Of a DNA stretch of 20,333 bases, positions 1 to 13,503 are shown one piece after another. The stretch spans positions 1 through 20,333 of IMG/VR virus record IMGVR_UViG_3300021137_000527; one strand, given 5' to 3'. Position 1 is the first letter of the stretch, and every line of letters begins with the position of its first letter. The translations under genes and the position numbers were made by a program. Under the pieces are notes generated by a model that had not been told where the DNA came from, did no database searches, and saw only the letters and a list, made by a program, of their open reading frames with translations. The stretch comes from a virus.

Positions 1-1575
1 TAACCAATCTTTGAGAATATAATCGGGCCAGGTAGGTAATAGACTTTTAACATATTGAAAGAGTCTATCTCTGTATTCAGTTATAGTGTTATTGCTTTCC
101 GCCACACCTTGCTGTGGTTGGTCAATCTCAGCCAACTTAGCACGAATCATATCAATCAATTTAGTATGGGTACCTGACAAAGCACGATGCTTTTCAATGT
201 AATCTAAGATGTGATTAGTTTCAGTTGCATATTTGTGTCTCCATTCAGGAGTCTTAGCAGTAGTGATATCTTTGACATTATCTAATCTATCAGCAAGTTT
301 GATAACTAGTGCATAGCTACTCATTGCAGCCATTTTGTGTGCTAGATATTGAGCCTTACCCATCTTTTTAATTTGTTCTGGATCGCTTGTAAGTTCCATT
401 ACAAGACTAGCAACTAATCCGCCAAACAAATCGTGTAAGATTTCTTGTGTTGTGTCAGTATCTTCAATTGTATCATGTAAGTATGCTGCACTAATTAATG
501 CATCTAGGTTATGTGATTTTTTAAATTGCTTGATATGATTAGCTACACGAACTGGGTGACTGATATATGGATCACCACCTGAACGAGTTTGCCCAGCATG
601 TGCTTTAGTTGCATATTGTAATGCTTCTTCTGAACCTTCATCAAACTGACTGGTGCTCACTGTATATTGTGAGGGATCAGCAGGACGAACTTCAACATCA
701 TCCATGTGAATGTCAATGTTCTTTTTAACTTTCAATGCATGTAATAGTTTCTCAACTAAATCATAAGGGATGTTTTTTGCTAACTTATGACGATCGCCAT
801 TAGGGGAAACATAATATACATTGACCAATGACTTTGGATTAAAGATACGTGTTTCTTCTAAACTATCTTTGTATTCTTTGAGCATGTTGAATATTTTTGT
901 TTTTTGCTCTGGTGATGCTTCACTAAGTAATGGTTTTACTTTTTCAACAAACTCTTTAATTTTCTTTTTCTTAGCAACTGAACCCATCAATCGTGCTTCA
1001 GCTTTATGCATCAAATCCATGACTTCTTTATCACCTAGCGCATCAGGCATAGCATCACGCCATACTTTGAATTTCTGTTCTTCAGTTGCTTCTGGGTGTA
1101 ATAGTATCTCACGCATTGGTGTAGCACGTGGACCTTCTAACTTAGCACTACTATCACCTGTTTCTTGTCTACTGATAACTTTCAGTTGTTTCAAACCCAT
1201 TGATTGATAGATAGGAACACCCTCTTTGTTTGGGCGCTCTAAGTATTTGAATGCTTCTTTTTGATCTGCACCAACAACTAATACTACACCTTGATATCCA
1301 TCTTCTGCCAACTCAGTTAATGCTTGATTTAAGTTACCTTGTGGTTGAAAAATCTTAGCATTTTGAGGGAACACTTTTTGATAGATTTTTACTTTTTCTT
1401 CTGGAAATAAAGGATCATCTTTACCAACTGTTTTGCTGATAAAGAAGTACGGATCTGCACCCATCAATTGTGCTTTAGTAATGACTGAACTAGCCAAGTA
1501 CATGTGACCTTTGTGTCCCATGCCACGACCCCATCCTACTACTGCGACTTTTTTATTTCCTGTGCGTTGTATCAT
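1..1575 (-). CDS. HxGH nucleotidylyltransferase fused to RelA/SpoT-type HD hydrolase (3' end outside window)
   Basis: The frame is open for 525 codons from ATG at 1575 to the window edge, so the C-terminus is missing. Residues 14-24 read GWGRGMGHKGH, the phosphate-binding HxGH loop of the NMN-adenylyltransferase/cytidylyltransferase superfamily. ATPMR at 151-155 fits the second nucleotide-binding motif (usually ISxTxxR). After a Lys-rich linker, residues about 310-490 match the (p)ppGpp-hydrolase HD domain of SpoT/MESH1: YISHPVRVA with H340, LHDTIEDT with H367-D368 and E371-D372, and LADRLDN with D429. The metal ligands and their spacing look intact, and no synthetase domain is seen. The start overlaps the upstream ligase-like gene by ATGA, so translation is probably coupled. 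Expected activities are nucleotidyl transfer (possibly NAD-related) and removal of a 3'-pyrophosphate from an alarmone. Both substrates are inferred. The segment beyond about residue 490 is unrecognised. Confidence 0.8.
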   Translation of the reverse strand, partial: MIQRTGNKKVAVVGWGRGMGHKGHMYLASSVITKAQLMGADPYFFISKTVGKDDPLFPEEKVKIYQKVFPQNAKIFQPQGNLNQALTELAEDGYQGVVLVVGADQKEAFKYLERPNKEGVPIYQSMGLKQLKVISRQETGDSSAKLEGPRATPMREILLHPEATEEQKFKVWRDAMPDALGDKEVMDLMHKAEARLMGSVAKKKKIKEFVEKVKPLLSEASPEQKTKIFNMLKEYKDSLEETRIFNPKSLVNVYYVSPNGDRHKLAKNIPYDLVEKLLHALKVKKNIDIHMDDVEVRPADPSQYTVSTSQFDEGSEEALQYATKAHAGQTRSGGDPYISHPVRVANHIKQFKKSHNLDALISAAYLHDTIEDTDTTQEILHDLFGGLVASLVMELTSDPEQIKKMGKAQYLAHKMAAMSSYALVIKLADRLDNVKDITTAKTPEWRHKYATETNHILDYIEKHRALSGTHTKLIDMIRAKLAEIDQPQQGVAESNNTITEYRDRLFQYVKSLLPTWPDYILKDWL

Positions 1576-2723
1576 AATTTTCTTGGTGCCCAATTACCTT
1601 GGTCAATCATCTTAACAAATTGATCTGGAATATCATTCTTAAACTTAGCACCCGGGTGTGCTTGTGCATACCCTTCAGGTTTAGTTTGCTTAATGCCACC
1701 ATGTAAGCCTTGACTAAGAATATTTATTATTTTTTGTTTTTCATTACCTAGTGCTTCAACTGCACCAAGTGTTGCTTTCAATCCTTGCGTATCTTGTAGC
1801 ATTACTGATGATTGACCGGAGCTTAAATTACTTTGTGCCCATGCTGGGAAATCTTTTAGCAATCCCTTGATACGCAAATGCTGGTTCAAATATGTGTATA
1901 ATATGCCACCTGGTTTACTAACACCTTTCTTAGGAGCTAGATAATTATCAATTAACTGTGCATTCTTTTGAATGAATTGACTTAATTTCTGTAACCCTGC
2001 ATCATCGGCACTAACTGGTTCTTCAACATATGTTGTACCTTGCACTAATATACTCGATTGGCTTAGTTTTTCAATTCCAGGATAACGTGTCTCATCACTA
2101 TCCATTGTAGGATAATAACCTGTTGCGGCTACCATCATTTTAGCATGTTGAATCTTTTGACCTAACTTACTATCTACTGGTACATGAAATGATGTGATGT
2201 TAGGAGTAAAGTCATATGTGTTCATTTCTTTGTTGAACACTGGCATTGCTGATTCACCGTCAGGTTTAGTACCAGGATAGAACAACAATCCACCTTCAAT
2301 GTATCCTTTATCAGGACTAATCTTTTCAAACATTGGCCATAGTTGTGCTAGTTGTCTAGCAAATCCTGAACGTCCTGCACTATCATCAGAACCAGTACCC
2401 ATAACAAACTTCATCACATCTTCTGGACTGTTAGGTAATGTAGGTGCACCACTTTTAGTTTGCATTTGACCACGCTTGATATATGCCCAAGCATTTTTAG
2501 GTATCATTCTAAAGACACCTTTTTCATCACGACCCCAATATACAACAGGCATGCCGTCCCATTTCAATTCAATGTGACCACCTTCTTGTCCCATGTGATG
2601 CATACGTTCAATTGCGTGAAAACCACCTTTGCTGCCGTGACTTAGTACTAGGTCTTCAATGTGTTGATATTTACGACCAATACTAGGTGCTGCTGCTTCG
2701 GTTAATATTTCATTGATTTTCAT
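1572..2723 (-). CDS. KxDG ligase-like nucleotidyltransferase with possible capsid-targeting N-terminus
   Basis: This 383-residue protein carries IELKWDGMPVVYW at 51-63. K54-W55-D56-G57 matches motif I (KxDG) of ATP-dependent DNA/RNA ligases and capping enzymes, in which the lysine is adenylylated. EGGLLFYPG at 143-151 fits the later EG motif (motif IV). No OB-fold or DNA-ligase C-terminal domain is obvious, and the rest is unfamiliar. RNA-end or nucleic-acid joining, or another lysine-AMP reaction, is possible. The N-terminus MKINEILTEA resembles the capsid-targeting peptides of T4 internal proteins, and LTE fits the LxE rule of the T4 gp21 prohead protease, so packaging into the head is conceivable. 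It overlaps both neighbours by ATGA. Family assignment rests on motifs only. Confidence 0.65.
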   Translation of the reverse strand: MKINEILTEAAAPSIGRKYQHIEDLVLSHGSKGGFHAIERMHHMGQEGGHIELKWDGMPVVYWGRDEKGVFRMIPKNAWAYIKRGQMQTKSGAPTLPNSPEDVMKFVMGTGSDDSAGRSGFARQLAQLWPMFEKISPDKGYIEGGLLFYPGTKPDGESAMPVFNKEMNTYDFTPNITSFHVPVDSKLGQKIQHAKMMVAATGYYPTMDSDETRYPGIEKLSQSSILVQGTTYVEEPVSADDAGLQKLSQFIQKNAQLIDNYLAPKKGVSKPGGILYTYLNQHLRIKGLLKDFPAWAQSNLSSGQSSVMLQDTQGLKATLGAVEALGNEKQKIINILSQGLHGGIKQTKPEGYAQAHPGAKFKNDIPDQFVKMIDQGNWAPRKL

Positions 2724-3439
2724 TTTAACATGTCCAATGTATTACGGAACCATTCTTGTACAGTTGGAGTACCAAAATATTTCTCTTTGATTGCGTTGTA
2801 CTTGTCAGGATACTGTTGCAATGCTTTCATCATCTTTGTTGGGTTACCCATATCATCTGCGCTTGCTGTGGGTCCAATGATGATTTTAGCAATTTGATCC
2901 TTATTGTTAGTTACTAGTTCTTTAGTTGCTCTATCAACTAGTCCCTTATAAGGACTCATCATTAAACTAGGATGACCTTCAACATGACTCATGTTGGCTA
3001 AATCTGCCCACATCGCATGTAATGTTCCACCTTTCATAGTTGGATCAGTGTAATCGTGAGTATGTAATGGCTGTGCCGCGTTAGCGTTTTCAACTGCCAT
3101 CAAGTCAACTTGAACAATCTCGTTACCTACTCCAGTTGGTACACCAACGTGAACGCTTACACCAGTACGTGCGGCAAATAAGCCTTTGTCTTTTAGATAA
3201 TCTTCTAATGCTTTACGACTTAGTTTTAATTCTTTTGCAGGGAAAACTGTCATTAGTTCACCGGCATCAATCAACGCATCAATGTCAGAACTAACTTCCT
3301 TGTGTCCTGCACTACCAATTGGATATAGATGTATTCCTTTAGGTAAAATACTCTGTAGGTTTGCAACAGCCCTAGGAAAGTTTTCTTTCTTAATTGCTAC
3401 TGCATTTGGTACAACGTTTCCGCCTTCAAACAGTTTCAT
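2720..3439 (-). CDS. Pol-beta-fold nucleotidyltransferase
   Basis: This 239-residue protein has the signature of the polymerase-beta nucleotidyltransferase superfamily: IGS at 41-43, SSDIDALID at 50-58 supplying metal-binding D52 and D54, and IVQVDLM at 108-114 supplying the third carboxylate D112. Such enzymes transfer NMP to RNA ends, small molecules or proteins. The substrate cannot be read from the sequence. The C-terminal half (about 120-239) has no motif I recognise; it contains HTHDYTDP and could form the substrate-binding part. The stop overlaps the start of the ligase-like gene by ATGA, and the upstream structural-like gene ends one base before its ATG. The Shine-Dalgarno sequence is weak, so translation may depend on coupling. 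It heads a run of three nucleotidyl-transfer genes. Confidence 0.72.
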   Translation of the reverse strand: MKLFEGGNVVPNAVAIKKENFPRAVANLQSILPKGIHLYPIGSAGHKEVSSDIDALIDAGELMTVFPAKELKLSRKALEDYLKDKGLFAARTGVSVHVGVPTGVGNEIVQVDLMAVENANAAQPLHTHDYTDPTMKGGTLHAMWADLANMSHVEGHPSLMMSPYKGLVDRATKELVTNNKDQIAKIIIGPTASADDMGNPTKMMKALQQYPDKYNAIKEKYFGTPTVQEWFRNTLDMLK

Positions 3440-3989: not shown

Positions 3990-4709
3990 TTAGACGATAT
4001 CGGCTCGCTTTTGTAATTTATACTTTCTACCCAGCATACCGTCATACATTAGTGCCAAATAGCTGAGATAACTCTCGTCATTATAGTCAATAAAGTAACT
4101 GCTAGAAAGGTATCGTAAGTTCCAATACCATTGACTATCTTCTTTCTGATACAACCACATTTTAAGAGCAGGGCTTGGTCTCAATTGTGTGTTAGTAGTT
4201 AAGATTTTCTTCAATCCATCTTTGAAGTCTTCTGGGATTCGTTTGCTTTTGAAATAAATTCTATAATTGTGTTTAGGTTCATTCGCAAAAGTTTTGACCC
4301 CTGAATACCCGGTAGTAACGGCCTCAGTGAAGTCAACACACACATCTGTTAGTTTATCAAAATTATCATGTAGTGATTGTAGGTCATTACTGAATACAGA
4401 GATAGTATCATATTCACCGCGAACTTTGCTAGACTTGTTCTTTTTACTATCAATTCTATACTGCAATACTGTTTTGATGCTAGGTAAGTGGTGAATAAGA
4501 ATATCTCTTTCATCCTGTTCTATTCTAATGATTTTTTTACTCTTACCTAATACCATTTGTTCAAATTCATCTGGTGCATAGTATTGTGCTCTACGAAAGT
4601 GAGGTATTGTGATCCTGCAACGGTACTGATATTGACTATAGTACAACTCGTCACGATACTCTTGCAGGTCAACACCCGGTGAATTAGTTGCTGACTTTAA
4701 TAATGCCAT
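3990..4709 (-). CDS. Hypothetical phage protein (239 aa)
   Basis: No family is recognised. The protein is soluble, mixed alpha/beta, and rich in Tyr, Lys and Arg: an aromatic N-terminal stretch (YYSQYQYRCRITIPHFRRAQ at 23-42), a basic middle with DSKKNKSSKVRGEYD, and a C-terminus rich in Tyr and Ser ending in LGRKYKLQKRADIV. The basic, aromatic character would suit a nucleic-acid-binding or small structural protein, which is inference. The ATG at 4709 lies inside the end of the ClpA-like gene (26-base overlap), with AGG about 7 bases upstream, so expression is tied to the chaperone operon. A promoter-like octamer follows its stop codon. Confidence 0.65.
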   Translation of the reverse strand: MALLKSATNSPGVDLQEYRDELYYSQYQYRCRITIPHFRRAQYYAPDEFEQMVLGKSKKIIRIEQDERDILIHHLPSIKTVLQYRIDSKKNKSSKVRGEYDTISVFSNDLQSLHDNFDKLTDVCVDFTEAVTTGYSGVKTFANEPKHNYRIYFKSKRIPEDFKDGLKKILTTNTQLRPSPALKMWLYQKEDSQWYWNLRYLSSSYFIDYNDESYLSYLALMYDGMLGRKYKLQKRADIV

Positions 4710-6957
4710 CTTCGCCTACTTCTACAATCATTTTTTGATGTACTTCAAAATCAACTTTACCGTCATTCATCACTACAGTAATATTTGCACTTCTAATACG
4801 TTCAAAAAGAATCTTCTTACTCAATGGAACACGAATTAGTTCATCAATTTTACGTGCAAGAGGACGTGCGCCCATCTTACTATCGTAGCCCTGTTCTGCT
4901 AAGTAATCAATGACTGGTTCACTTAATGCCATTGAAATGTCGTGCGTATCTTTCAGTGACTTTTTCAAATCATCAGTGAACTTAACCACAATCTTCTTGA
5001 TAGCGAGGCTGTCAAGTTTTTTGAACTTACAAATCAAGTCAATCCGATTTCTAAATTCTGGTTTGAAAAATTCTTTCAATGCTTTATCGTCTTCACCTGT
5101 ACGCTCTGTGCTACCGAACCCAATAACTGATTTCTCACTATCAGCACTACCCAAGTTACTTGTCATAATTACAATACAGTTTTTAGCATTGACTTCTTTG
5201 CCATTACTACCAGTAATTTTACCTTCATCAAGCAATTGCAAGAAGATGTTGAAGATATCTGGATGTGCTTTTTCAACTTCATCAAATAACAAGATACTAT
5301 GTGGGTTCTTGCTCAAATCATTGAGTAGTCGTCCGCCACCTAAGTTACCTTCACCGAAGCCAACATAGCCAGGGGGTGCGCCGATCAAACTACTGACACT
5401 AAACTTTTCACCGTATTCACTCATATCATACTTGAGTAATGGCATATCTAAGTTTTTGCTCAATAACCGTGCTAGTTCAGTTTTACCCGTACCAGTTGGA
5501 CCCAAGAACAGGAAACTTGCCATTGGTTTAGTCGTATTACCAATACCCGCAAAACTAACATAGACACGATCTAGTACTTGGTCAACTGTTTCTGATTGTC
5601 CATACAACTTATCTTTGATGTTTGTATCTAAGTTTTGGATACGTTCATAGTTATTATCTTTGAGTTTATCTGCCGGAACACCTGCAATACGTTCAACTTG
5701 GTCAAAAATCAAGTCTTTAGTAATGACTGCACCCTCGTTACCTGCAACACGTTGTTTGGCACATGCAGCGTCTAACAAATCAATACTCTTATCTGGGTTT
5801 TTACGGTCATGAATATATCTAGTGGAACAATCAACTGCTGCTGTAATCGCTTCATCAGTAATTTTAACATTATGGAAGTCATCTAGTCGTTCACTCAATC
5901 CACTCAAAATGCGAATAGTTGAATCATAACTTGGCTCATCAACTGAAACTTTATAAAAACGGCGCATTAACGCACGATCCTTTTCAAAACTTTCGTAGAA
6001 TTCTTCCCATGTTGTACTAGCAATAACTTTCAAGTTACCTTTAGTAATTGCTGGTTTAATCATGTTGGCAAAGTCTGGACCACTTTGACTGCTCGATCCT
6101 GCGCCGCGCATTGTATGTGCTTCGTCAATGAAAAGAATTGCTTTCTTTTTAGTAGTTAGTGCGTCAATAATTGCTTTGACCTTTTCTTCAAAATCACCGC
6201 GATATTTACTTCCTGCAACCAATGAACCAATTTCTAAACTGTATACATCATGTCCGACTAAGAATTCAGGAACGTCACCTAATGCAATTTGCTGTGTAAT
6301 ACCCTCAACAATAGCAGTCTTACCTACACCAGGATCTCCAACCATCAATACGTTACTTTTGAATCGCTTTGCTAATACGTTAACAATATCATCAACTTCT
6401 TTGCTACGACCAATCATGGGTTCTAGTTTACCATTTCTAGCAAGATTAGTTAGATTGGTTGTATATTCTTCTAGGATTTCGTCTGCTTGCTCGTCACTGA
6501 GCTTAACAATTGCATTCTCACCCTTATAAGTTTTTTGCCAGAATGGCAAGAATTCTTGTTTGTTAATACCATATTTCAACAAGAAATAATGTGCATGACT
6601 ATTTCCTTCTGCTGCGATACTTAGATACAAGTCAATAGTTGTAACTTGTTTACGACCAGTAAACAAAACTTGCGTGACTGAACGATTCATAACTCGTTCT
6701 AAAACATTTGTTTTACGAGGTTGAACAGTTTCTCCTGGTTCAACATTCATTCTGATAGCATGTAGACTATCAACATACTGTGTCACTTCCTTAATCATTA
6801 AGTTAGTATCAATACCATAGTTCTCTAAACATTTTTTGAATGGAGAATGTGTGATTAATGACAACAATAAATGTTCTACAGTGCAATATTCGTGATTGCG
6901 ATCTTTTGCAAAGCCAATGGCATGTTCAATAATTGACTCAATTTCTGGTGAATGCAC
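4684..6957 (-). CDS. clpA: ClpA-like double AAA+ unfoldase with ClpP-docking IGF loop
   Basis: This 757-residue protein has the full ClpA layout: an N-terminal Clp repeat domain (about 1-140), AAA+ module 1 with Walker A GDPGVGKT (207-214) and Walker B LFIDEA (275-280), and module 2 with Walker A GPTGTGKT (486-493), pore loop GYVG (530-533), Walker B ILLFDE (555-560) and sensor-2 GARPL (696-700). It lacks the coiled-coil middle domain of ClpB/ClpC. VIGFGS (611-616) lies where ClpA carries its IGL loop, the tripeptide that docks ClpP. That placement implies it can feed substrates to a host ClpP rather than only disaggregate them. The start is GTG at 6957 with an AAGGA ribosome-binding site; no ATG fits the N-terminal domain better. 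The gene follows dnaJ by 11 bases. Confidence 0.93.
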   Translation of the reverse strand: MHSPEIESIIEHAIGFAKDRNHEYCTVEHLLLSLITHSPFKKCLENYGIDTNLMIKEVTQYVDSLHAIRMNVEPGETVQPRKTNVLERVMNRSVTQVLFTGRKQVTTIDLYLSIAAEGNSHAHYFLLKYGINKQEFLPFWQKTYKGENAIVKLSDEQADEILEEYTTNLTNLARNGKLEPMIGRSKEVDDIVNVLAKRFKSNVLMVGDPGVGKTAIVEGITQQIALGDVPEFLVGHDVYSLEIGSLVAGSKYRGDFEEKVKAIIDALTTKKKAILFIDEAHTMRGAGSSSQSGPDFANMIKPAITKGNLKVIASTTWEEFYESFEKDRALMRRFYKVSVDEPSYDSTIRILSGLSERLDDFHNVKITDEAITAAVDCSTRYIHDRKNPDKSIDLLDAACAKQRVAGNEGAVITKDLIFDQVERIAGVPADKLKDNNYERIQNLDTNIKDKLYGQSETVDQVLDRVYVSFAGIGNTTKPMASFLFLGPTGTGKTELARLLSKNLDMPLLKYDMSEYGEKFSVSSLIGAPPGYVGFGEGNLGGGRLLNDLSKNPHSILLFDEVEKAHPDIFNIFLQLLDEGKITGSNGKEVNAKNCIVIMTSNLGSADSEKSVIGFGSTERTGEDDKALKEFFKPEFRNRIDLICKFKKLDSLAIKKIVVKFTDDLKKSLKDTHDISMALSEPVIDYLAEQGYDSKMGARPLARKIDELIRVPLSKKILFERIRSANITVVMNDGKVDFEVHQKMIVEVGEDGIIKVSN

Positions 6958-6968
6958 GGTTGTTTTCC

Positions 6969-7775
6969 TTAGTTACGATATTGCGTGATTGCATCTTTGA
7001 TGCGTGAATCTATTGTAGCAGGGATAAATGGTTTCATCAATATCATTTGGTCACCAAATCCGTTATTAATCGGTAAGCCCTTTCCTACTAAACGTAAATT
7101 TGATCCAGGTTGTGTATTGGGAGGGATAGTTACTTCAACTTTATCACCAGAAACAGTAGTAAACTCAAACTTACCACCAACGATCAAATCCAAAACACTT
7201 ACATCCTGCACCGAATGCAGGTGCGGACCATTACGTTGATACTTAGCATTTGGATACACTCTGAATTCTACGATTAGTATACCATCTTTGATGAGGTTAT
7301 CATATCGCATAGTTTGTCCATCATCAACACCACGCGGAATATCAATCTTAATTGGATTAGATTGTCCCTGCATCTGTAATAGTTGTTCGCCACCATTGTA
7401 TACCTGTTCTATGCTTACCCAAACAACTGTGCGATAACTAGGTTGTTGTGGACGACCACGTTGTCCCGGATGACCAAACATTTGGCTAAAGATATCATCC
7501 ATACCAAATCCACCCATTTGGAAACTAAATCCACCGGGGAATCCTTGTTGGAATCCACCGGGCATTTGCCCGTTACCGAATGGATTTGGATTATCGTATT
7601 GTTGTCGTTTTTGTGGATCAGAGAGGGTTTCGTATGCCTCTTGAACTTTTTGAAACTGGGCAGTATCACCGCCCTTGTCTGGATGGTGAATGCCAGCCAT
7701 TTTACGATATGCTTTTTTAATGTCTTCAGGGGTAGCATTGTTAGCTACCCCAAGAGTTTGATAATAGTCAGTCAT
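6969..7775 (-). CDS. dnaJ: DnaJ/CbpA-type (class B) J-domain co-chaperone
   Basis: From ATG 7775 the protein is 268 residues. An in-frame ATG at 7796 would add seven residues but lies inside the promoter-like sequence and breaks the canonical J-domain N-terminus (DYYQTLGV). The J domain occupies 1-60 with HPD at 31-33, the motif that stimulates DnaK ATPase. A Gly/Phe-rich linker (about 62-105) follows, then a two-part beta-sandwich substrate-binding region (about 115-255, VYNGGEQ, IDIPRGVDDGQ, PPNTQPGSNLRL). There are no CxxCxGxG repeats, so it is a zinc-free class B Hsp40. No phage DnaK is present in the window, so the partner is presumably the host's. It is the first gene of a dnaJ-clpA unit. 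No good Shine-Dalgarno is seen. Confidence 0.93.
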   Translation of the reverse strand: MTDYYQTLGVANNATPEDIKKAYRKMAGIHHPDKGGDTAQFQKVQEAYETLSDPQKRQQYDNPNPFGNGQMPGGFQQGFPGGFSFQMGGFGMDDIFSQMFGHPGQRGRPQQPSYRTVVWVSIEQVYNGGEQLLQMQGQSNPIKIDIPRGVDDGQTMRYDNLIKDGILIVEFRVYPNAKYQRNGPHLHSVQDVSVLDLIVGGKFEFTTVSGDKVEVTIPPNTQPGSNLRLVGKGLPINNGFGDQMILMKPFIPATIDSRIKDAITQYRN

Positions 7776-7784
7776 AATATTGAT

Positions 7785-7813
7785 AGTATAGCACATTAGG
7801 TGCTAGTCGTCAA
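7785..7813 (-). promoter_or_regulatory. Sigma70-like promoter upstream of dnaJ
   Basis: On the minus strand TTGACG (7808-7813) and TATACT (7785-7790) are separated by exactly 17 bases, a near-consensus housekeeping promoter. Only nine bases separate the -10 box from the dnaJ ATG, so the transcript would have almost no leader, which agrees with the missing Shine-Dalgarno. It overlaps the late-type octamer just upstream. Confidence 0.5.
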
Positions 7814-8558: not shown

Positions 8559-9137
8559 TTATAATCCTGCCTTTGCTAAGTAACCCTGTAATATGCTATC
8601 TTTTTTACCAGTGTATTTCTTTGGTAATTCTAAACCTGCTTGAATACGCATTTCACTTAATTTATTATCTTTTTCTGTTTCAGAATCTTCTGCATCTTCT
8701 TCAGGAAACTGTTCACGATATAAATGTGGGCTTTGAATGATGTGAGGTCCTATTTCTTCTTCAACTGCTGCATATTCTTTATCATCAATTTCAATAGTCC
8801 ATTCTTCACTATCTAAATCAGTTAGTGTTTCTAAATCTTCAATCAGTTCAATAATTCTTTTGGGTGCGCTTGTTCTACGATTAATTTCAACAAACACTAG
8901 ATATTTGCCAGGACTAACTTCACCTTCGCTAATTTGTGCATCTACAATCCAATCATAGCCATGATAGAACCAATCTACTAAATCTTCTGCTGCTTGTTTA
9001 CTTTTTAGAGTAAATGCTAATGTAATTAAGTTAGCATCACTCCCTGATTTAGCAGAATATTCATCTATTGTTAACATTGGTTGAATTTGATTTACCATGT
9101 CTTTGTGGTCAAGACCTTCGTTCAATATTTTTTTCAT
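8559..9137 (-). CDS. Hypothetical acidic phage protein (192 aa)
   Basis: No family is recognised. The N-terminal two thirds (1-125) look like a mixed alpha/beta domain, with strands such as LITLAFTLKS and YLVFVEIN. The last third is strongly acidic (FPEEDAEDSETEKDN) and ends in a basic Lys-rich tail (ELPKKYTGKKDS). MKKILNEGL is a common style of start in T4-like phage head proteins, but no protease site is clear. It has a near-perfect ribosome-binding site (AAGGAGG) and its ATG overlaps the upstream stop as TAATG, so high expression is expected. It lies between an unknown gene and the holin-like gene, one base before the latter. Confidence 0.65.
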   Translation of the reverse strand: MKKILNEGLDHKDMVNQIQPMLTIDEYSAKSGSDANLITLAFTLKSKQAAEDLVDWFYHGYDWIVDAQISEGEVSPGKYLVFVEINRRTSAPKRIIELIEDLETLTDLDSEEWTIEIDDKEYAAVEEEIGPHIIQSPHLYREQFPEEDAEDSETEKDNKLSEMRIQAGLELPKKYTGKKDSILQGYLAKAGL

Positions 9138-12302: not shown

Positions 12303-12671
12303 TTATGCCTTATCTGATATTGTTTCATCATCCATCGGTTCATCCGATACAATGAGTATATCATTAGGATCCACTCTACGCAATGTCTTTTTACCCTCTT
12401 CGTCTTCAATATCAATACCACGAGTCCAACGACCATGACTTACCAAAATGTATTGACCTTCTTGCAAATCACCCGTATACTCAGGACCAAACTTGTAGAT
12501 TTTACACCAACGCGGTCTGATACCTGCACTCTTGGCATCATCTTTAAGCAAAATTAATCCTGAACGAGTTCTACGTTCATCAAATTTCATTTCGGTAACT
12601 ACAATCCAATCTTTGATTGGTTTAAGTTCGTCTTTATTGACCTTATGAGGTTCAAATGCTAATTTTGTCAT
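12303..12671 (-). CDS. GroES/gp31-like co-chaperonin
   Basis: This 122-residue protein fits the GroES fold used by phage co-chaperonins such as T4 gp31. DWIVVTEMKF (21-30) matches the first strand. ERRTRSGLILLKDDAKSAG (32-50) takes the position of the mobile loop, whose hydrophobic tip (GLILL, compare GGIVL in GroES) binds GroEL. CKIYKFGPEYTGDLQEGQYILV (56-77) matches the VxxVGxG...VkxGD part. The C-terminus is acidic. T4 gp31 replaces GroES for folding the major capsid protein, so the same role with a host GroEL is likely. It overlaps the upstream gene by ATGA and precedes the 124-residue gene by one base. Confidence 0.75.
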   Translation of the reverse strand: MTKLAFEPHKVNKDELKPIKDWIVVTEMKFDERRTRSGLILLKDDAKSAGIRPRWCKIYKFGPEYTGDLQEGQYILVSHGRWTRGIDIEDEEGKKTLRRVDPNDILIVSDEPMDDETISDKA

Positions 12672-12996: not shown

Positions 12997-13503
12997 CTAT
13001 TTTAAAAATTCATCTATGCTTAAGTCATAGAATATACTATTTACTCGGTGTATGCCTATCAGATACAATACATAACTGGCTACACTAGACCCTCTACCTA
13101 CACCCCAAACAATGTTATTTTTACGCATTGTATCAACGAGGTATTTACAGTAACAAAGTAATGAGAATAAGTCACGATCCTGATACAATAGTAATTCTTC
13201 TCCCACACGCTGAAGTTCATAATCTTCTTTACATTGAGCAAGAACCCATGCAGCAATATCCATGTTCTTATATTCAGTGGGCATGTACCAATTGTCTTGG
13301 TTTATCTTGTCAAATTCTTCAACAGTGATGTCCAAACTATGGTATTTATTTAGTATAGGTATGTTCTCAAGTTCAAGTATTGGGTCAAACTTGATTTCTT
13401 TTTCAATCAATGCGTTATTGATTTTGAAGTCTGGATCACGAAGGAATGCTAAGAAAATGTCTTCTTCGCTTAAAATTTGTCTACCATAGATATCATTCTT
13501 CAT
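12997..13503 (-). CDS. Stand-alone DnaE-like GRGS palm fragment (168 aa)
   Basis: Residues about 110-168 match the region of bacterial DNA polymerase III alpha around its nucleotide-binding loop: LFSLLCYCKYLVDTMRKNNI, then GVGRGSSVASYVLYLIGI (134-151) and FYDLSIDEFLK (158-168). These correspond to the helix before VGPGRGSAAGS and the YDLLFERFL segment in DnaE. The protein stops before the position of the catalytic DxD aspartates and has no PHP domain, so polymerase activity is unlikely. It may be a regulator or a domain reused in replication. The first 100 residues are acidic and unfamiliar. The stop is clean TAG and I see no continuation in another frame nearby, so it looks like an intact small protein. 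ATG 13503 has no Shine-Dalgarno. Confidence 0.75.
   Translation of the reverse strand: MKNDIYGRQILSEEDIFLAFLRDPDFKINNALIEKEIKFDPILELENIPILNKYHSLDITVEEFDKINQDNWYMPTEYKNMDIAAWVLAQCKEDYELQRVGEELLLYQDRDLFSLLCYCKYLVDTMRKNNIVWGVGRGSSVASYVLYLIGIHRVNSIFYDLSIDEFLK

Follow-up and report, generated by a model that had tools for sequence, protein, structure and literature searches.

T4-like cutting signals suggest that a polymerase-like, ligase-like and nucleotidylyltransferase gene trio of uncultured phages is carried in the virion

The left end of IMG/VR record IMGVR_UViG_3300021137_000527 (positions 1-20,333; this whole stretch of 20,333 bases is called the window here) encodes three enzymes, POLB, LIG and NTP-HD. 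Cutting signals like those of phage T4 suggest that the trio travels inside the particle and is injected to mend the entering DNA and to disarm the host. On balance we favour the view that POLB, LIG and NTP, the last with or without HD, form the conserved core of an enzyme set that T4-type phages pack into the head and mature by proteolysis, and that would be injected for gap repair, supply of nicotinamide adenine dinucleotide (NAD) and alarmone removal. N-terminal tags (M[KR]..[LIV]xE) and [LIV]xE borders between fused modules would direct the chains into the prohead core, a gp21-type prohead protease would cut at both, and the freed enzymes would be injected along with the DNA. Inside the new host, POLB would fill short gaps and LIG would seal nicks in the entering genome, NTP would make or restore a nucleotide cofactor such as NAD, and exchangeable cargo behind NTP, here an HD domain of the MESH1/SpoT type, would remove the host alarmone. 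Packaging and processing are probable, with cleavage and injection as putative steps, while polynucleotide repair, presumably on DNA, is an evenly balanced call and NAD as the product of NTP is a doubtful guess. The set would work like the T4 internal head proteins and the polyvalent proteins, joined in a way for which no description was found in a limited literature search. The window belongs to a tailed phage, as clamp loader, PhoH, endolysin and virion proteins are among the PHROG matches of 20 scanned proteins, and it is presumably T4-type, judging from relatives with a T4-type gp23 and prohead protease.

All three genes lie on the minus strand, which the original prediction had not given. 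POLB (2720..3439) is a Pol-beta-fold nucleotidyltransferase of 239 residues, LIG (1572..2723) is a KxDG ligase-like protein of 383 residues belonging to DUF6267, and NTP-HD (P0001) runs from 1575 to beyond position 1, with 525 residues visible and its C-terminus outside the window. The prediction had recognised three consecutive nucleotidyl-transfer enzymes of different folds with ATGA overlaps, and the coordinates confirm both overlaps, at 2723-2720 (POLB/LIG) and 1575-1572 (LIG/NTP-HD). It had also proposed a search for conservation of this neighbourhood, which proved positive, and it is nearly certain that POLB-LIG-NTP is a conserved unit. The IMG/VR scans supplied nine LIG relatives and, for POLB, the best 80 of 90 relatives; profiles run over 170 sources found POLB in 94 open reading frames (ORFs), LIG in 93, NTP in 81 and HD in 11, which makes HD an accessory. 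With near-duplicates removed, 44 loci had 1.5 kb or more of downstream sequence, and all 44 carry LIG behind POLB on the same strand, 41 of them within 200 nt. Of the 36 non-redundant loci with 3.5 kb or more, 34 have LIG and then NTP, the misses being L082 and L164 (L numbers are our labels for contigs and loci). LIG and NTP form one ORF in 15 of these 34 loci, five of which include POLB too, and are unfused in 19. In the cyanophages P-HM1, S-PRM1, S-CAM3 and DSL-LC02, DUF6267 adjoins a cytidylyltransferase downstream of gp41; the cluster is also downstream of mazG in three of the four, and primase and nrd genes lie beyond it in S-CAM3 and DSL-LC02. The LIG profile matches all four cyanophage LIGs (60-76 bits) and the NTP profile matches four cyanophage NTPs (108-122 bits). 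This cluster differs from that of the window in that the POLB profile has no match among 24 proteins of such regions and that its LIG carries no tag. LIG is found elsewhere in S-SCSM1 and P-TIM68, where it lacks the helical insert; these insert-free DUF6267 proteins, away from the cytidylyltransferase gene, are encoded at 2407-3291 (L234, S-SCSM1) and about 2332-3213 (L235, P-TIM68). A tblastn search with one cyanophage NTP hit 533 phage records.

LIG starts with MKINEILTE/AAAP (2697..2723, minus strand; a slash marks a known or putative cut), which resembles a T4 capsid-targeting tag removed by the prohead protease. MKINEILTE/A and the start of T4 gp24, MAKINELLRE/STTT, are identical at 7 of 10 positions, with one gap. 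The T4 prohead protease removes the first 10 residues of gp24 and 65 of gp23 (PMC9958956). Residue 65 of gp23 is the E of FLTE/AEIGG, and T4 IpII and IpIII start with MKTYQEFIAE/A. An S77 prohead protease and gp23 are encoded by three of nine related contigs, and these gp23 proteins carry LLAE/S, LLSE/S or HLAE/S within one alignment column of the T4 cut. POLB has a possible short tag, MKLFE/GG (3425..3439, minus strand), of which E5, G6 and G7 are invariant in 34 aligned proteins. Of 39 distinct LIG copies that are unfused, 35 have the tag (L061, L067 and L068 are untagged and L072 is ambiguous), and 14 of 24 distinct unfused NTPs are tagged. The [LI]xE tag of T4 internal head proteins is present in LIG, in a five-residue form in POLB, and absent from the NTP of the window. 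In 384 non-redundant genes of the loci, the density of [LIV]xE[AGS] peaks at 5-8 residues from the start, with 29.3 per 1000 positions against 0 to 12 per 1000 in windows from residue 13 on; by family (135), the motif rate is 8.8% at residues 3-9 and at most 4.2% in later windows. Tagged starts occur in 3 of 22 listed window genes (the list leaves out NTP-HD and the gene from 18166 on), namely POLB, LIG and a 192-aa gene at 8559-9137. The product of this last gene (minus strand) starts with MKKILNE/GLDH and matches the virion structural PHROG phrog_13138. Tagged genes are also clustered beside the unusual POLB locus of L082 (8001-14954), with the starts MRIHEIINE/S, MRITELLEA, MRIKELLEA and MRANEFITE/S; the last protein has no Pfam match up to E 0.001.

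The same motif recurs inside the chains. In all 10 distinct POLB-LIG fusions, GRKYQHIEDL is preceded at 4-6 residues by [LIV]xEA, which has this place in unfused LIGs too, and 20 of 22 LIG-NTP junctions have [LIV]xE followed by A, D, G or N, the others being VLKEQ and VMNEA. When segments that stand behind an N-terminal tag were compared with their internal homologues, the latter keep a [LIVMF]xE border, sought in an 11-residue stretch, in 128 of 177 places, while 14.5% of random stretches have the motif (7694/53100). The interchange is seen in 20 of 27 families, and in 79 of 119 places when the LIG and NTP modules are left out. The count was at first 147/217 and became 128/177 after exclusion of matches in which one and the same protein runs on upstream (146 rows with duplicates still included, ClpA among them); within the 128/177, one family of five rows (L022, MKDQIEPKITVDE) is still a false tag. 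The last module of the window, TITE/YRDRLFQYVKSLLP, stands in L151 directly behind the tag MRAHEFIVE/. For one motif that serves as both leader end and module junction, we know of no simpler reason than cleavage, which these comparisons of sequence would suggest. Tat-signal-like stretches (RRGFL or RRGIL followed by a hydrophobic run; we take this to be the Tat, or twin-arginine translocation, motif) immediately follow a tag or lie close to a VAE border in 6 of 10 RRG matches, at 3861-4511 of L117 and 6264-6905 of L131 (both minus strand) and internally in L006, L014, L027 and L146, as in MRATEFVTE/MDRRGFLRG and GVAE/ADLNRRGFLKG. Of the other four, those of L169 and L180 look unrelated, and those of L085 and L089 are Tat-like and lack a border, Pfam TAT_signal being listed for L085 below its cut-off. 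If the Tat-adjacent borders are cut, a Tat signal would be freed as a new N-terminus.

Within the trio, published mass spectrometry of virions covers homologues of NTP alone. The NMNAT-like ORF91 of S-SCSM1 has been detected in virions, and the authors of that study point to two other cyanophages whose virions contain an NMNAT or a cytidylyltransferase (PMC9602691). The S-SCSM1 record labels ORF89-93 as virion proteins; ORF91 starts with MKSFLQFLKE/AA and matches the NTP profile, and short stretches of ORF92 and ORF93 recur in three and two IMG/VR locus ORFs, respectively (best E 1.5e-7 and 1.8e-10). The S-CREM2 virion contains cytidylyltransferase ORF154 (three peptides) and ORFs 155 and 156 (PMC10665884, Table 3), the correspondence being one of annotation.

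The nearest known systems share parts of this arrangement. T4 internal head proteins (IpII, IpIII and Alt) have a targeting sequence cut by gp21, to which the short M[KR]..[LI]xE tag of LIG is similar; an S77 protease and gp23, present in 3 of 9 related records, are a further likeness. The comparison covered IpI, which lacks the 10-residue form, IpII and IpIII. Unlike these proteins, the cargo here is a conserved enzyme trio and the borders recur between fused modules, so that one chain would give several products. Polyvalent proteins carry several disparate enzymatic domains per chain and are predicted to be injected (Iyer et al., 2017, PMC5512222). Relatives of the window likewise have POLB, LIG and NTP, or LIG, NTP and HD or a deaminase, in single ORFs; the difference is that the borders of the phage trio look like prohead-protease sites. 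No zincin metallopeptidase appears in the Pfam listings of 18 proteins, for which no dedicated search was made. Another explanation is that the proteins are packaged and processed but act, as in polyvalent proteins, as anti-host effectors that modify host proteins or nucleotides and not as DNA repair enzymes. Such domains are combined in polyvalent proteins (PMC5512222), and the cargo of relatives includes HD_4 and dCMP deaminase (L079), with GNAT (L133) and GIY-YIG plus NTP_transf_2 (L019) in other repeat-bearing ORFs. However, the POLB-LIG-NTP order varies far less than the cargo does, as would fit a housekeeping function, and a Pol-X fold with ligase motifs suits nucleic acid, so we regard the effector explanation as unlikely.

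The modelled fold of POLB is clear. G42, S43, D52, D54 and D112, which the original prediction had named as GS and an Asp triad, are invariant in the 34 aligned proteins. The model (pLDDT, or predicted local distance difference test score, 89.1, with residues 1-5 below 50) resembles the palm and thumb of an X-family DNA polymerase with the catalytic Asp triad; Foldseek matched X-family DNA polymerases (best E 9.5e-6), and VIA aligned it with residues 142-335 of pol beta (Z 11.1, 3.4 A over 164 residues), the 50 listed VIA rows being X-family DNA polymerases. The POLB profile matched nothing in a sequence search of the PDB, and no Pol-X Pfam family matched among the 34 members scanned, with families up to E 1 considered. 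Because of this lack of a profile match, POLB is filed as X-family-like and not as a member.

LIG (P0002) matches DUF6267 (PF19782) with 43.4 bits against a gathering cut-off of 27, as do all 33 aligned LIG proteins, in which K54, D56 and G57 of the predicted KxDG motif are invariant and E143 and E350-G351 nearly so. In six cyanophage DUF6267 proteins, K33, D35, G36, D101, E258, G259 and K271 are invariant, and the ligase motifs are conserved also in the insert-free forms of S-SCSM1 and P-TIM68. LIG thus has, in order, the residues that we take to be motifs I (KxDG), III, IV (EG) and V (K) of ATP-dependent polynucleotide ligases. The structure models that the prediction had called for bear out POLB better than LIG. 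The LIG model (pLDDT 85.1, residues 1-16 below 50) has weak fold matches, with a best Foldseek E of 0.021 and none below 0.001. Polynucleotide ligases, or repair complexes holding one, account for 49 of its 50 VIA rows, but Z is at most 6.2, in a range that, according to the tool, perhaps means just a common arrangement. These matches include RNA ligases (REL1, Z 6.2; Trl1; Rnl1) and AsfvLIG. A PDB sequence search with the LIG profile gave one match, a chance lectin, and one with the short S-SCSM1 protein gave none.

The usual ligases show a reciprocal pattern. DNA_ligase_A_M, NAD-ligase and RNA_ligase profiles match none of 10 records (that of the window and nine relatives, contigs of 260 and 289 kb among them, although records of uncultured phages may be incomplete), and DNA_ligase_A_M and RNA_ligase match none of six complete cyanophage records, for which these two profiles were run. 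DUF6267 is present in all 10 records and all six cyanophages and absent from T4, which matches DNA_ligase_A_M and RNA_ligase. The presence of DUF6267 is partly a matter of selection, because LIG or POLB served to fetch the 10 records, and LIG three of the cyanophages (the other three came through NTP). The pattern nevertheless fits DUF6267 as the ligase of these phages. In a collection of genomes, 14 pattern matches for DUF6267 included one relative, on a 4.2-kb contig of a Bacteroidetes metagenome-assembled genome that is possibly a phage. If the assignment is right, DUF6267 would gain a proposed function as the ligase of those T4-type cyanophages that give no match to the usual ligase profiles. 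From the folds and motifs of POLB and LIG and from the reciprocal pattern, therefore, gap filling and sealing of injected DNA is preferred, with about as much chance of being wrong as right. The repair pair of African swine fever virus, described as Pol X and a ligase, is a similar combination of an X-family-like polymerase with a ligase, in a different virus class.

The same enzymes could instead be an RNA-repair set made in the infected cell and not packaged, in which POLB restores nucleotides, LIG reseals tRNA and NTP-HD is auxiliary. tRNA or RNA repair had been among the functions proposed originally, jumbo phages pair the Pol-beta nucleotidyltransferase RlaP with RNA ligases (PMC7824862), and several fold matches of LIG, as given above, are RNA ligases. 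In contrast to the jumbo phages, neither the RlaP profile (PF10127; a control search was positive in 3 of 14 genomes) nor RNA_ligase matches in the 10 records, the fold matches of POLB are DNA polymerases, and RNA repair leaves the tags, the borders and the virion detection unexplained. We regard this function as improbable.

Besides the weak fold matches of LIG and the missing Pol-X profile match of POLB, several observations weigh against a packaged and processed repair set. POLB (P0003) has no homologue in the phage collection by tblastn, and its tag would be a mere five residues. The NTP of the window and of its clade is untagged, as are 10 of the 24 distinct unfused NTPs and the four cyanophage LIGs that adjoin NTP, and T4 IpI itself departs from the 10-residue tag. 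Neither the 20-kb window nor six of the nine related contigs gave a match to the S77 protease, though all of these may be fragments. The DUF6267 protein of S-SCSM1 is encoded apart from NTP and bears no virion-protein label. Contamination is named by the S-CREM2 authors as an alternative for the detection by mass spectrometry (PMC10665884), and the available text on S-CREM1 names no cytidylyltransferase among its 14 virion proteins (PMC9964418).

The third protein was predicted as an HxGH nucleotidylyltransferase fused with an HD hydrolase, and both parts hold. The untagged NTP domain (976..1563, minus strand, about residues 5-200 of P0001) is NMNAT/cytidylyltransferase-like, matches the cytidyltransferase PHROG phrog_3041 (E 1.2e-17), and has H21, G23 and H24 of HxGH invariant in 11 aligned proteins. 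The HD_4 domain (208..624, minus strand, residues 318-456) scores 62.7 bits against a cut-off of 27.2 and has the HDxxED motif as HDTIED; its best solved relatives are CG11900, RelA/SpoT and MESH1, with an E of 3.4e-11 for 3nqw. It clearly belongs to the alarmone-hydrolase family by sequence, and its target in the cell would be the alarmone. Alarmone neutralisation, as first suggested for the cluster, thus fits the HD module and no other. The C-terminal tail DYL[DEP]EK is found in 30 of 2034 distinct ORFs, 28 of which are NTP ORFs differing widely in length and cargo (e.g. L002, L013, L028 and L079), and other NTP ORFs end differently.

NAD salvage, also suggested earlier, is possible for NTP, and cyanophage authors read NTP-type proteins as NAD metabolism (PMC9602691, PMC10665884). 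The 20 window proteins scanned against PHROGs include no NadV-type match. The cluster could then be an ordinary operon of nucleotide or NAD metabolism, whose [LIV]xE motifs arose by chance or serve another role such as translation or folding. NAD salvage genes do occur in phages (PMC9503650), NDP-sugars may be further products of HIGH-type enzymes (PMC7824862), and NTP has the matching family likeness. Such an operon would have to account, however, for borders kept at 128 of 177 places, when random windows show them in 14.5%, and for the resemblance to the T4 gp24 propeptide, besides the absent NadV type, and it is very unlikely.

The cargo behind NTP is variable and joined by QGVAE linkers. 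Among loci fetched without regard to any repeat, one sharp block of some 20 nt, AGCAAGGTGTGGCGGAAGGC, is common to 62 distinct GVAE sites, silent positions included. The Ala codon is GCG at 53 of these 62 sites, against 9 of 40 other VAE triplets and 7.1% of all Ala codons of the same loci. Of 163 exact copies of the 13-mer, the longest frame reads 162 as GVAE (80 loci listed of at least 120 IMG/VR stretches). None of 37 GVAE sites lies inside a significant core domain; five had at first been counted there, and all five domain calls had an E of 76 or more. In the window, the in-frame copy GGTGTGGCGGAAA (96..108, minus strand; one mismatch to the core) encodes the linker QGVAE/S, past which the third protein runs on into a further module, whose start YRDRLFQYVKSLLPTWPDYILKDWL lies behind TITE/ (1..75, minus strand). 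The sister contig L002 has a 906-residue version of NTP, with 97% identity over the 200-residue NTP stretch compared. DNA identity between the window and L002 is 300/300, 131/140 and 19/24 before the repeat, 15/19 in it, and 16/47 and 20/45 after it, for which module exchange at the repeat would be the simplest account. Cargo domains besides HD include a match to dCMP deaminase in the LIG-NTP ORF of L079 and one to GNAT, below its cut-off, in the NTP ORF of L002. A Pfam scan of eight repeat-bearing ORFs gave no match for L161, L149, L151, L082 and L038, and one below the cut-off for L080.

We tentatively propose, at somewhat less than an even chance, that the repeat of about 20 bp is both the site of cargo exchange and the code for a prohead-protease cut, QGVAE/G. 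Head-packaged polyproteins would then be built by in-frame cassettes placed after an unchanging repair core, which consists of the Pol-X-like polymerase, the DUF6267 ligase and the NMNAT-like enzyme, and each new cassette would be born cleavable and injectable. The repeat match of the window is by itself not beyond chance, since 12 of 100 shuffles have one. Neither the repeat nor tagged polyproteins were found described within one limited paper collection. If the proposal holds, a protease site would be the place at which phages shuffle DNA and thereby swap their injected cargo. If the packaged repair set as a whole is right, a T4-like tag or border would be a readable signal for injected proteins of uncultured viruses, and a DNA gap-repair kit would be added to the known virion cargo.

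Other features of the window lie outside the trio. Sites like the late promoter TATAAATA number 37 in the window against 55 by chance, i.e. fewer, and no claim is made on them. ClpA/B-like and DnaJ chaperone genes stand beside the cluster, and a head-morphogenesis/GroES-like protein is also encoded (4684-7796 and 12303-12671, both minus strand). A 168-aa ORF at 12997-13503 (minus strand) matches the DNA-polymerase PHROG phrog_11127 (E 1.6e-38), whose length is just 171, and is possibly a split or terminal piece of a polymerase.

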